Source: Acidobacteriota bacterium
GTDB taxonomy: Bacteria > Acidobacteriota > Thermoanaerobaculia > Multivoradales > Multivoraceae
Direction of reading: 5' to 3'
DNA: 64,000 nucleotides
Assembly: GCA_029263415.1 (NCBI GenBank)
Contig: JAJCXN010000026.1
Coordinates: 1-64,000 of the forward strand
In this document: piece by piece, positions 27,417-52,592 of the stretch
Layout of the letters: the number at the start of each line of letters is the position of its first letter
How positions within the stretch are numbered: position 1 is the stretch's first letter
Translations under genes and position numbers: made by a program
The notes under the pieces: generated by a model
What the model saw: the letters and a program-made list of their open reading frames with translations, nothing else
Told to the model about the DNA's origin: nothing
Databases searched by the model: none

Positions 27417-27517
27417 GAGATAGTGTCGGCGTCCCCAAGCATATGCAAGACGGTTCTAGCGGTTCGCAGGACCGTGAGATTCAACCCGCTGCGCTCCTTC
27501 ACCCCATTCAGCCATTT

Positions 27518-29122
27518 ATGCCGGACCACTCCAAGATCACGCTCGACCCCCAGGCACCTGAAGGGACCCGATCCGTTCAACGGACGATGGGGCTGCTCAA
27601 CGCTTTTCGCTACGGAGAGAGTTGGTTACCGCTCAAGGAGATCGCCGCCCGAGTTGGGCTGCCCAAGCCAACAGCGCATCGCATTCTCAATGCGCTCGCG
27701 TCGACGCGCTTGATCGAGGGCAGTGCGGATGGCAGATATCGACTGGGCAGCGCAGCGACCGAACTGGGGTTCAGGGCCAGCATAGCGCGGCTCGAGTCGC
27801 CACCTCGCCCGACGCCATTTACCGCCTCGACTGTTGCTCGATCGAACTCGTTCGACTATCGCGCGTGGAACGGAGCGGTGGGAGCGACCTCCTACGATGC
27901 GACCTTTGAGCGCGAGTACTTTGCGGTCAGAGGGGGAGCCGGAGTGCTCGATGTGTCGCCGCTGTTCTTGTACGAGTTTGTTGGGCCGGAGGCCGAGCAA
28001 GCTGTACAGAGAATCCTCACGCGAGATGTCAGACGCTGCGCGGTCAACCAGGTCATGTACTCGGCATGGTGCGATGACGACGGTTATCTGCTTCAAGACG
28101 GCAACCTGATCCGACTAGCCCCAGATCGGTTCCGGCTGTCCACCGCGGAGCCATCGCTACGCTGGTTTTCCGACTGTTCCTTTGGCCTCGACGTTGTGGT
28201 GCATGACATCGGTGACCATGTGGCCAAGCTCGCAGTGCAGGGGCCACTTTCTCGTTCGCTCTTGCAACGCGTCTTAGACCCAGGCTCAGCGAGCGCTGAT
28301 GCAGTCGCGGAGCTTGGCTACTTTCGCGGGTGTGCCGCCGAATTTGAAGGACGACCGCTCTATGTGACACGCACCGGCTTTACCGGTGATCTCGGCTACG
28401 AGTTGTGGATGGAACTCGACTGCGTCGAAAGCGGAGTCGAAAGCGGAGTCGAAAGTGGATGCGGAAGCGGAGAGGCCAATCATGCTCCCGCCGCTAGTCT
28501 GTGGGAGGCTTTGCTCAATAGCGATCTTGGACCAGCCGTGATGCCCATGGGCCTAGAGGCACTCGACGCGGTGCGCATTGAGGCGGGCCTGATCTTGATT
28601 GATATCGACTATTTTTCGTCTAGCCACGCGCTGCTCGAAAAGCGGCATTCGACTCCGGATCAAGCAGGCTTAGGGTGGGCCGCAAAGATGGTGGCAGGCA
28701 ACGACTTCGTTGGTCGCGCAAAGATGAGTCAAGAGCGCAAGCGAGGGGTAACGTCCCAGTTCGTTGGATTGGAGATCGATTGGCCGGAGCTCGAACGGGC
28801 CTACGCGCCGCACGGTCTTAGACCGCAAACCGTGGGCCGACCGCCCAGCCGGGAGCCGATGCCGATTCGAGCGGCCGGCCACGACGCTTCCGGCCCTCAG
28901 ATTGGGCAGGTGACATCGAGCTTCTTTTCACCGCGTCTCAAAAAGCAGCTTTGTTTGGCCACGGTGCCCAGCGAGCACGCCAAGATCGGTTCAACCGTGC
29001 AGGTGGGGATGCGAGTCGAGATGCAACGTTCATTGCTCAGCGCGACGGTGGTGAAACTGCCGTTCTACGAGCCGCCTCAGAAGAAGGCAAAGTTCAGGCT
29101 CGGTTCAGGAGGAGAAGCGTGA
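27518..29122 (+). CDS. IclR-type HTH fused to GcvT-like aminomethyltransferase
   Basis: The protein has 534 residues from ATG 27518. Residues 17-84 are an IclR DNA-binding domain: SVQRTMGLLNAFRYG, then LPLKEIAARVGLPKPTAHRI, then LIEGSADGRYRLG. The usual IclR effector domain is absent. In its place, from about residue 98, stands a complete GcvT/aminomethyl-transferase-family enzyme (TPFTASTVARSN, FEREYFAVRGGAGVLDVSPL, RTGFTGDLGYELWM, MGLEALDAVRIEAGL). Such enzymes move one-carbon units to tetrahydrofolate. An acidic repeat near residue 305 is inserted. An earlier in-frame ATG at 27443 is possible; neither start has a strong ribosome site. The stop overlaps the next GTG start. I infer an enzyme that also controls its cluster. 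Confidence 0.85.
   Translation: MPDHSKITLDPQAPEGTRSVQRTMGLLNAFRYGESWLPLKEIAARVGLPKPTAHRILNALASTRLIEGSADGRYRLGSAATELGFRASIARLESPPRPTPFTASTVARSNSFDYRAWNGAVGATSYDATFEREYFAVRGGAGVLDVSPLFLYEFVGPEAEQAVQRILTRDVRRCAVNQVMYSAWCDDDGYLLQDGNLIRLAPDRFRLSTAEPSLRWFSDCSFGLDVVVHDIGDHVAKLAVQGPLSRSLLQRVLDPGSASADAVAELGYFRGCAAEFEGRPLYVTRTGFTGDLGYELWMELDCVESGVESGVESGCGSGEANHAPAASLWEALLNSDLGPAVMPMGLEALDAVRIEAGLILIDIDYFSSSHALLEKRHSTPDQAGLGWAAKMVAGNDFVGRAKMSQERKRGVTSQFVGLEIDWPELERAYAPHGLRPQTVGRPPSREPMPIRAAGHDASGPQIGQVTSSFFSPRLKKQLCLATVPSEHAKIGSTVQVGMRVEMQRSLLSATVVKLPFYEPPQKKAKFRLGSGGEA
28424..28459. repeat. Three tandem copies of a 12-bp unit inside the IclR-GcvT gene
   Basis: GTCGAAAGCGGA is repeated at 28424, 28436 and 28448 (the last with one change), encoding VESG three times in a surface loop of the GcvT domain. 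Confidence 0.9.
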
Positions 29123-48080: not shown

Positions 48081-51000
48081 ATGAGCCGCGCAGTGGTGGC
48101 GGAAAAGCCGTCGGTTGCGCGCGACATCGCGAGTGCGTTGGGCGCGTCGCGGCGGGGAGACGGTTTCCTCTATGGCAACGGTTGGGTGGTCACATGGGCT
48201 ATTGGGCACTTGGTGCGTTTGGCCGAACCTCAGGAGATCAACCCGGCTTGGAAGAAGTGGAAGGCGGAAGCACTGCCCATGTTGCCCGATGAGTGGCCGC
48301 TTGAGGTGGTTGATCGCACCGCGCAGCAGTACAAACTGGTGAGCAAGATCTTGAGGTCGCAGAAGGTCACCGAGGTCATCTGCGCCACGGATGCGGGGCG
48401 TGAAGGCGAGCTGATCTTTAGATCGATTTACGAGAAGTGCGGCTGCAAGAAGCCGATCAAGCGGCTTTGGGTGTCGTCTTTGACACGAGATGCGATCGTC
48501 CGCGGCTTTGATGCTTTGCGACCGGGCGCTGATTTTGAGCCGTTGGCGCATGCCGCTCGATGTCGTAGTCGAGCGGACTGGCTTGTGGGCATGAACCTAT
48601 CCCGCGCTTGCACTGTGCAGTACAACGAGTTGTACACGGTTGGCCGGGTGCAGACGCCGACGCTTGCCTTGGTGGTCAAGCGCGATATTGAGATCGAGAC
48701 CTTCGTCCCTGAGGCCTACCTCGAAGTGCAGGCGACGTTTGGTGCGCTGCCGCAGAATGACAAACCGACATCGGAATCAGGGCAACGTGGCAAGCAGCTC
48801 AGCGAGTCGACCTACGATGGTCGTTTGGTCAGAGCGGGCAAGTTGGTTGCAGCAGCACCAACTGCGACAGCGTCCAGCGCCCGTGGCTCAGCTACCAGCG
48901 CGTCAGCAGCGGATGACCCATCAAAGAAGCCAAGTCAGCGAGTGCCCTATCTTCGCTTCCATGACGAGGAAGGCAAAGAACCGAAGGCTGAGGTTGCGCT
49001 GTTGATCGCTGCGGAGCTTGAAGCAATGTCAGCGAACCGAGGTGCTGGTGCTGGCACGGGGACTGTTACTCGGGTCGAGCACAAGCCTCGTAATATGCCG
49101 TCGCCGCGTCTGTATGACCTGACCGAGCTCCAGCGTCATGCCAATCGACTGCTGGGCTGGAGTGCGAAGAAGACGCTTGGCATCGCCCAGGATCTCTATG
49201 AGAAGCGCAAGGCGATCTCCTATCCGAGAACCGACAGTCGCTACTTGAGTACCGACCTTGTGCCTACGCTGCCGAGCATTGTCGAGGCGGTTGCGCCGCG
49301 CTACCCAGGGAGACTCGAAGCCGCCCGAAGGTTAGGCAATTCTCCCGGCGGTCGTTTTGTCGCCGATGGCAAGGTCACCGATCATCACGCCATCGTGCCG
49401 ACGCCCAGGTCGCAGAGTTCCTTGTCGCAGGACGAAGAAAGACTCTACGATTTGGTGTGCCGCAGGTTCCTCTCGATGTGGCTGCCCGATCATCAGTGGT
49501 CTCAGACCGAGGTCATCACTACGGTCGAGCCGGTGAGTGCCGCCCTGCAAGAGATTGGTGATCTCGACTTTTTGTCCAAAGGCAAGACCATCACCCAAGA
49601 CGGCTGGAAGGTGCTCGATGTCGGTTATGGCGACGACCGAACCAAGGGTGGCAGCCGACGCAAGTCGCGCCCGAAGAAGGGCGATGGCGAATCCAACGCC
49701 TTGCCGGCGTTCCTCGAAGAGGGAACGGTAGCCGAGTTGCGCGGCTCAGAAGCTCAAAAGAAAGCGACCAAGCCTCCTAAGCCCTATACCGAAGCAACGC
49801 TGCTCACCGCGATGGAGACTGCGGGCAAGTTGATCGATGACGAAGAGTTGTCGGCGGCAATGCGCGAGCGTGGCCTGGGGACACCCGCAACCCGCGCAGA
49901 CATGATTGAGACGCTGTTGCGCAGAGAGTACCTGGAACGGCTCGGCAAGGCTCTACGATCGACGCCCAAGGGCCGGACTCTGATTGCGTTGGTACCAGCG
50001 ACGGTTAAGAGTCCGGAGTTGACTGGTCAGTGGGAGGCCCAACTGCGCGCGATTGAGAACGGCACCGGTGACTGGAAGACCTTCGATCGCGAGATCAGAA
50101 CCACAGTCGAGCAAACAGTCGCCGAAGTGCTGGATGGACGCGCCGGACGCGCCGGACGCGCTGGGCAAGCCGGGCAAGCCGACCCGAACAGCCCAGCCGC
50201 CCGCAACGGTCTGGCAAGACGGAACAGCCGAGCTCCTGCTGCCAAACCGGGTGCAGCCTCGAAGCGGTCCATGGGTTCAGCAGCCCCTCCCGAAGATGCG
50301 CCGACACCGGACATGCTGTGGGACGGCCCGATGCAAGAACCACAAGAAGCCGCTTCGCAGGATGCGCCAGATCTCCACTGGCTTGATGATCCGTCGATGC
50401 AGGGCGCGGCGAATGAGCAGGTGGCCGTTGCAGTTGGCCAACCTCGCGCTGCCGCGCCGGTACCGAAGAAAGCACCCTTGAGATCTTCGAAAAAGAAGTC
50501 GGTCAAGCGAGCTAAAGCTGGGAAATGGTCGGGCCGGAGCGCCACCGAGGTTCTCGAGTCGGTGTTCGGTCATAGGGAGTTTCGTCCCTTTCAAGAAGAC
50601 GTCTGCCGCGGTGTCATCGACGGTCGTGACTCGCTGTTGGTGATGCCCACCGGTGCCGGTAAGTCGCTTTGCTTCCAGCTTCCAGCGATCGCGCGCGGAG
50701 GTACGGCGTTGGTGATCTCGCCGTTGATCGCGCTGATGGAAGATCAGGTCCCGAAGCTGCAAGAACTGGGATTGAACGCAGAACGCATCCACTCCGGCCG
50801 CCAGCGCGCAGAGCAACAAGAAACGCTGGCGTTGCTCGCGGCTGGCGAGCTCGACTTCTTGTTCATTGCTCCTGAACGACTGGGTGTTCCAGGCTTCATC
50901 AACCGCCTCCGCGACGCGCAACTGAGCCTGGTCGCGGTGGATGAAGCGCACTGTATTTCCCAGTGGGGTCATGACTTCAGGCCCGACTACCGACTACTCA

Positions 51001-52592
51001 AGGACCGTTTGCCGCAGTTGCGAGAGGCCCACAATGCGGCGACTCCGGTGATCGCGCTCACCGCCACTGCGACCACTCGCGTGCAGGACGACATCGTGAC
51101 TCAGCTCGGCCTAGACGATGCTGCGCGACACATCTATGGGTTCAGGCGCGACAACATCGGTATCGAAGTCGCCGAAATGTTGCCGTCGGCCCGACGCGAC
51201 ACGTTGGCCGACCTACTCGAAAGTGCAGATCGCCGGCCGGCGATTGTCTACGCATCTAAGCGCGCCGATGCTGAAACCCTGGCCGACGACTTGAGCCAAT
51301 CGATGTCGGCGGCCCCTTACCACGCGGGACTTTCGGTGACTCGACGCGATCGTGTGCAAGAACAGTTTCTGCGCGGAGACTTAGACGTCATCGTCGCCAC
51401 CATCGCGTTTGGCATGGGCATCGACAAGCCTGACGTGCGCACGGTTGTGCACGCGGCACTGCCGTCAACCCTCGAGGGCTACTACCAGGAAATCGGTCGT
51501 GCTGGACGTGATGGCCAGCCGTCCCGTGCGGTGTTGCTCTACTCCTGGGCCGACCGCAAACTGCACGAGTTTTTCTTAGAGCGCGACTATCCAGAAACCC
51601 ACGTGCTCAAGTCCGTCGTTCGCAAGCTCGCCGAGGATCCAACGCCTGCGGCACTAGTGCGTGATCAACTGCGCTTCGATGACGATCTCTTCAATACCGC
51701 CGTCGATCGTTTGATGCTCTACGGCGGGATCGAGATCGTGCGTCGCGATGGCGACGACTGGTTGATCAAGGGCAAGAAGGCCTGGCAGAAGCTATATGAG
51801 GCGCAACGTGAACACCGGGTGCAGCAGCTCGACGAGATTCTGCGTTTCGCCCGCGGCCGGGATTGCCGGATGCTGTCCTTGGTCGGGCACTTCGGGGACC
51901 AGCGCGATTCTGGCGAAGCTTGTGGGCACTGCGATCAGTGTCAGCCGGGCGGGACGCTGGCGACATCGACCCGCGGTGTCACTAACGACGAAGTTGCTGC
52001 GATGGAGTCGATCCTGTCACTGATGGCAAAGATCGGCGACACTGGAACGGGCAGGCTCTTTAAGGAGACCAGCGGCCTGCATGGCTGGCTAGACCGCGAT
52101 ACCTTCGAGGAGCTGCTCGGCGGTCTGACGCGTGTCAGATTGGTGGCGATCAGTGAAGCCTCGTTTGAAAAGAACGGTAAGACGATTCACTTTCAACGGG
52201 CTGGCCTCACGACCAACGGTCGCCGGGCTGTTCGCGGCGGCACAGAGGCGCTCAACGACATTGAGCTGGTCGACAAGCCGAAGCGGAAGCGGTCCAGTAA
52301 GACCAGAAGAACGTCTGGATCAAAAGCAAAGTCAGGGCGAGGGAACGAGGCGCCACGGCCTGCCTTGGGACCCGCCGAGACTAGGTTGTTCGAGCGGCTT
52401 AAGGCGTGGCGCACCGAGGTGAGTCGCCGCAAGAAGAAGCCGGCGTACACGGTGCTGGCCAATCGAAGTCTCGAGGATCTTGCACTGTTGCGTCCCAAGA
52501 GCCGATCAGCGCTACAACAGGCCCATGGGGTGGGACCAAAAAAGGTTGAGCAATACGGCGACGATCTGCTTGAGATCCTGGCGCGTGAGTGA
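48081..52592 (+). CDS. DNA topoisomerase III-RecQ helicase fusion
   Basis: This is one 1,503-residue protein. Residues 1-690 are a type IA topoisomerase of the TopB branch, with the TOPRIM start [20 protein letters not shown] at 104-110, [19 protein letters not shown] and active Tyr381 in [11 protein letters not shown] poorly ordered insert (about 225-325) interrupts it. A Gly/Ala/Pro/Lys-rich linker spans 690-815. Residues 815-1500 are a full RecQ: Walker A MPTGAGKS (855-862), DEAH (954-957), aromatic loop [37 protein letters not shown], four Cys for zinc ([19 protein letters not shown]), a winged helix and a C-terminal HRDC. Normally the two enzymes act together to resolve double Holliday junctions as separate proteins. 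All catalytic motifs are intact. Confidence 0.95.
50136..50180. repeat. Five 9-bp units in the topoisomerase-helicase linker
   Basis: GGACGCGCC occurs at 50136 and 50145, GGACGCGCT at 50154, and GGGCAAGCC at 50163 and 50172. They encode the [15 protein letters not shown] start of the linker between the two enzymes, so copy changes would alter linker length in frame. Confidence 0.9.

Follow-up and report, generated by a model that had tools for sequence, protein, structure and literature searches.

A TopB-RecQ gene fusion in Acidobacteriota as a probable single-chain form of the bacterial RecQ-topoisomerase III pair

Within the window, i.e. the whole 64,000-nucleotide stretch of acidobacterial DNA analysed here, one gene encodes a type IA topoisomerase III (TopB), a 129-residue linker and a RecQ helicase, in that order, with each half complete and both in a single polypeptide. 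Judging from sequence comparison, we read this gene as a natural single-chain form of the bacterial RecQ-topoisomerase III pair, with a probability of roughly 70%. The original prediction had identified the two joined enzymes from this frame and left open whether co-linear fusions occur elsewhere; they do, across Acidobacteriota, with the same architecture in 19 other assemblies. An assembly or sequencing artefact joining two genes, which that prediction had named as a way in which it could fail, was rejected because these independent genomes carry the same join, which also excludes chance, and its residual probability is negligible.

Architecture of the fused gene

The frame (48081..52592, +) opens with an ATG and runs for 1503 codons with zero internal stops (Table 1), in agreement with the predicted in-frame joining of TopB to RecQ, and two separate transcripts are unlikely for a single stop-free frame. 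Searches against solved structures linked the RecQ half to bacterial RecQ cores and the TopB half to E. coli topoisomerase III. Structure models were made for each half separately.

Table 1 Features of the fused gene, with window coordinates and supporting evidence
Feature	Position	Strand	Evidence
Fused topB-recQ gene, 1503 aa	48081..52592	+	Single open frame; Pfam and NCBIfam match both enzymes
TOPRIM domain (Toprim), residues 4-133, with acidic metal-binding motif DAGREGE	48090..48479	+	PF01751; motif kept in alignment
Enlarged, partly disordered loop, residues ~222-325, in the position taken by the decatenation loop of E. coli topoisomerase III	48744..49055	+	Alignment to E. coli TopB; AF2 pLDDT <50 at 258-295
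Topoisomerase III core (Topoisom_bac), residues 324-668	49050..50084	+	PF01131 (E 7.5e-105); AF2 model vs 1i7d
Active-site Tyr381-Pro-Arg383 (YPRTDS)	49221..49229	+	Invariant in 35 aligned TopBs
Linker, residues 691-819, low complexity, predicted disordered	50151..50537	+	AF2 pLDDT <50 for 703-819; composition; relaxed pN/pS in relatives
RecQ helicase lobe 1 (DEAD, residues 835-1002), Walker A K861, DEAH 954-957	50583..51086	+	PF00270; invariant in alignment
RecQ helicase lobe 2 (Helicase_C, residues 1039-1145), with a 12-residue motif	51195..51515	+	PF00271; alignments
Extra winged-helix-like domain, residues 1173-1230, at the boundary of helicase core and zinc domain	51597..51770	+	AF2 elements 384-441 of the model, pLDDT >90; alignment insertion
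RecQ zinc-binding domain (RecQ_Zn_bind, residues 1239-1288), Cys1262, 1281, 1284, 1287	51795..51944	+	PF16124; four Cys invariant
RQC-type winged helix, residues 1302-1376	51984..52208	+	AF2 elements 513-587 of the model
HRDC domain, residues 1434-1500	52380..52580	+	PF00570

Over the first half of the protein, two TopB models were matched above their curated cut-offs (PRK07726, topoisomerase 3, 648 vs 597; TIGR01056, topB, 552 vs 516), and residues 1-690 can be aligned with the TopB proteins of E. coli and Listeria. The DAGREGE motif and the YPRTDS tyrosine, on which the claim of a complete TopB had been based, are present and conserved, with Y381, R383 and the TOPRIM acids D104 and E108 invariant across 35 aligned TopBs. 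A Gly in DAGREGE replaces the second Asp of the E. coli DPDREG, and since Listeria TopB carries the same Gly, the motif is a normal TopB variant. The AF2 model of this half matches E. coli topoisomerase III (1i7d_A) with a target-normalised TM of 0.84 and has the toroidal topo III fold; its mean pLDDT of 78 is reduced by loops and linker, and model confidence is low in the enlarged loop that the alignment places at the decatenation-loop position.

The RecQ half was likewise found to be complete as predicted, with the Walker A and DEAH motifs, the other helicase motifs, the four zinc Cys, the RQC winged helix and HRDC all in place, and its AF2 model (mean pLDDT 90) matches the E. coli RecQ core. 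The family model TIGR00614 (recQ_fam) was passed at 389 vs a cut-off of 219.8, and the strict RecQ equivalog TIGR01389 was missed (501 vs 640), probably because of a divergent C-terminal half that includes the extra winged helix, a domain absent in E. coli RecQ and common to this RecQ subfamily in both its fused and stand-alone members. Because the TIGR01389 cut-off was missed, we describe this half as a RecQ-family helicase and not as an orthologue of E. coli RecQ. Catalytic residues, whose loss in homologues would have counted against two working enzymes, are present in the aligned homologues of both halves.

Between the two halves, the linker of the window's protein is 83% AGPSTKRDEQ, and those of relatives span 41-164 aa with a composition dominated by A, G, P, S, T and charged residues. 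For close pairs of fused genes, pN/pS, a ratio of proportions that is not a calibrated dN/dS and whose pS is near saturation in two pairs, was 0.12-0.39 in both intact halves vs 0.48-0.86 in linkers; both halves are thus under purifying selection while the linker drifts. A scan of the linker for a conserved internal start codon with a Shine-Dalgarno-like site found none, and a split of the product by internal initiation was rejected on that basis.

Elsewhere in the window, a 559-aa frame (27443-29122, +) combines an N-terminal IclR-type helix-turn-helix with GcvT-type aminomethyltransferase domains, which is an unusual combination.

Distribution and evolutionary history

Both halves were found in one frame in 20 genomes (the window's and 19 other assemblies) from six families of a single phylum, a count that includes a few frames ending at a contig end inside the RecQ half; the genomes searched all belong to this phylum, and the TopB and RecQ halves served as separate queries. 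Fused frames come from the same order as the window (G016, G022-G026, G071), from family f18 of the same class (G135, G140-G144, G146-G148), and from the same phylum (G153, G168, G206). Contig ends truncate four further TopBs of the same clade (G017, G069, G070, G481); in G017 and G481 a RecQ frame starts right at the margin of a different contig, the pattern that assembly would leave on breaking up a fusion. No phage record covered 80% of the query, nor did any among the best 5000 plasmid records, and the fusion was seen in 0 of 47 viral TopB frames (521-879 aa).

The original prediction had also raised the question of separate topB and recQ genes. The window's genome (G000) amounts to 6.89 Mb in 60 contigs and is 99.2% complete. 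It has no TopB besides the fusion, its TopA-type enzyme being encoded separately on contig C4, and no other RecQ that exceeds the family cut-off. Among 18 fusion-bearing genomes checked, the fusion is the only RecQ-family helicase in 12 (E <= 1e-40), and the other six have more. In other fusion-bearing genomes, a very long helicase of the DEAD/RecQ-like type was additionally found joined to a UvrD/REP helicase (L245:2191-7500 and L246:2136-7001). Outside the window, the ADOP permease family TIGR03434, which is acidobacterial, is matched 68 times in G000, and 0 of 14 control genomes exceeded its cut-off; from these matches the phylum is taken to be Acidobacteriota.

Across 72 genomes of the order, the other TopBs at the search threshold were distant ones in G032 and G068 only, and none was detected at that threshold in 23 other sampled genomes of the window's own family, whose examined members keep RecQ alone. 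As these relatives manage with RecQ and no TopB, the window's lineage can dispense with the TopB half, and the TopB-RecQ pairing is not essential in that family. One such relative, G002, carries a stand-alone RecQ followed by a 2-hydroxyacid dehydrogenase with 48% identity to the one following the window's fusion, and given this matching downstream gene it is probable that loss (or gain) of the TopB half occurred at this very locus. No TopB remnant was seen beside the stand-alone recQ genes.

Trees of the two halves, which are quick searches with several long branches, gave different pictures. Fused, contig-end-cut and decayed-fusion TopBs form one clade (support 99, 26 rows) exclusive of every stand-alone TopB, and no stand-alone TopB falls inside it. 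The RecQ halves fall within a single long-branched subfamily, intermingled with stand-alone RecQs of TopB-less relatives, and monophyly of the fused RecQs was rejected (p-AU 0.0028). Decay of the other half was observed in G364 and G399 (L153:4615-7224 and L154:4940-7555), where the part joined to TopB is a RecQ lobe 1 remnant of ~185 residues, whose DEAH box is broken (EEAE) and whose Walker A surroundings are altered, and where an intact recQ lies elsewhere in the genome. Since pN/pS in this remnant is still 0.17, it may have retained a non-helicase role. The simplest reading suggested by these patterns is one old fusion followed by several partial losses, with TopB lost repeatedly; repeated fusion or transfer would be a less simple history.

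Proposed function and alternative readings

The domains point to a cis-acting RecQ-Topo III decatenase or "dissolvasome" as the likeliest role, and from them we infer activity, action in cis and substrate. The RecQ half would unwind duplex DNA 3'->5' and expose single strands, and the tethered TopB, which needs single-stranded DNA, would cut and re-join a strand and pass another through the break. Together, the two could unlink hemicatenanes, precatenanes at converging forks, and double Holliday junctions without crossover, with the long disordered linker keeping the enzymes together and leaving their geometry free, such that both might act on the same junction. The product may in this way be the "self-contained dissolution machine" originally proposed, for which a 1:1 stoichiometry would be useful. 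Dissolvasomes have been described as RecQ-family helicases with TopoIII (PMC8191776), and RecQ stimulates strand passage by topoisomerase III in vitro; E. coli genetics, in which topo I and not topo III emerges as the partner of RecQ, counts against the pairing (PMC4125114).

Within this reading, the substrate could differ from the one first envisaged. A working fusion may act mainly at converging replication forks or other replication entanglements and not on double Holliday junctions, a sub-case that we hold tentatively and as somewhat less probable than its converse. Resolution of converging forks in vitro has been shown for E. coli RecQ and topoisomerase III (Suski and Marians 2008, as cited in PMC4125114), and the reason for which bacteria would need to avoid crossovers has been discussed as unclear (PMC4125114), but the sequence gives evidence on substrate neither way.

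The conservation pattern also bears on whether the two enzymes are coupled at all. The fusion could be neutral, with two independent housekeeping enzymes brought together by loss of a stop codon in an operon and then acting uncoupled or being cleaved after translation. Such an origin would fit the adjoining recQ and topB genes of Listeria and a linker that is both disordered and fast-evolving, and the halves are evidently separable, as shown by the stand-alone RecQs nested between fused RecQs (p-AU 0.003) and by the two genomes with a decayed RecQ. However, 20 genomes have kept the frame unbroken although linker turnover has produced lengths of 41-164 aa, the fused TopBs form a clade without any stand-alone member, and the linker lacks a conserved internal start, all of which make neutrality an unlikely explanation.

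Relation to known systems and database labels

The single-chain RecQ-topoisomerase III reading has a close counterpart in the E. coli pair, which consists of the same two enzyme families with the same catalytic residues conserved, although in E. coli recQ and topB are two separate, unlinked genes, whereas here they form one chain whose RecQ has an extra winged helix. In Listeria, the genes are adjacent, 23 bp apart and unfused, in the order recQ then topB, and Listeria TopB has C-terminal zinc-ribbon-like Cys pairs. The eukaryotic dissolvasome (Sgs1/BLM-Top3-Rmi1) likewise physically couples a RecQ-family helicase to a type IA topoisomerase III, but does so non-covalently via Rmi1, and no Rmi1-like part was seen in the fusion. 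Judging by an entry in the reference list of PMC3905885, Bennett and Wang (2001) constructed artificial fusions of yeast Top3 and Sgs1. For natural TopB-RecQ fusions, we found no description in a full-text literature search that took in a minority of subscription papers, and a 2021 review of type IA enzymes (PMC8191776) does not contain the words "fused" or "fusion".

Like the gene described here, reverse gyrase naturally joins an SF2 helicase to a type IA topoisomerase, which raises the possibility of a reverse-gyrase-like enzyme performing helicase-driven positive supercoiling. In reverse gyrase, however, the domain order is opposite and the helicase is not a RecQ, whereas the topoisomerase is N-terminal here and of the TopB type, and its helicase partner has the zinc, RQC and HRDC domains of a full RecQ. 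The reverse gyrase model TIGR01054 scored 90 vs a cut-off of 472, and on this cut-off and the domain order we rejected this highly improbable identity.

Whether topoisomerase III and RecQ act as partners in bacteria is unsettled, with in vitro stimulation on one side and E. coli genetics favouring topo I on the other (PMC4125114), and the retention of this fusion in many genomes, with the active sites of both enzymes conserved, is independent evidence for the pairing. We lean slightly towards a broader interpretation in which a single-chain dissolvasome, coupling ATP-driven unwinding and strand passage in cis, is ancestral to a large part of Acidobacteriota, constitutes a second natural class of helicase-type IA topoisomerase beside reverse gyrase, and provides comparative evidence of a real topo III-RecQ partnership in bacteria. 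The fusion also supplies single-molecule and structural studies with an enzyme that is 1:1 by construction and needs no two-protein assembly, with relatives lacking TopB and the two genomes that have lost RecQ function as natural controls.

Finally, the PADLOC model PDLC02865, labelled "DpdF", matches the protein at 1294 bits, as would be expected were it the DpdF of a 7-deazapurine DNA-modification or defence system. This model of 1499 positions nonetheless spans the whole fusion and is itself a TopB-RecQ profile (the TopB half alone matches at 288-660, the RecQ half at 750-1342), so that its name is a label of the defence library and does not describe the architecture. The curated NCBIfam DpdF model NF041063 scored 232 vs a cut-off of 550, and the neighbouring genes examined were not dpd-like. 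With the curated cut-off missed and the PADLOC profile being one of the fusion itself, a DpdF or defence identity was rejected and is very hard to credit. Because PDLC02865 covers the fusion over its full length, public databases already contained such proteins by 2023, mislabelled as "DpdF". The same profile will mislabel TopB-RecQ genes as defence genes.
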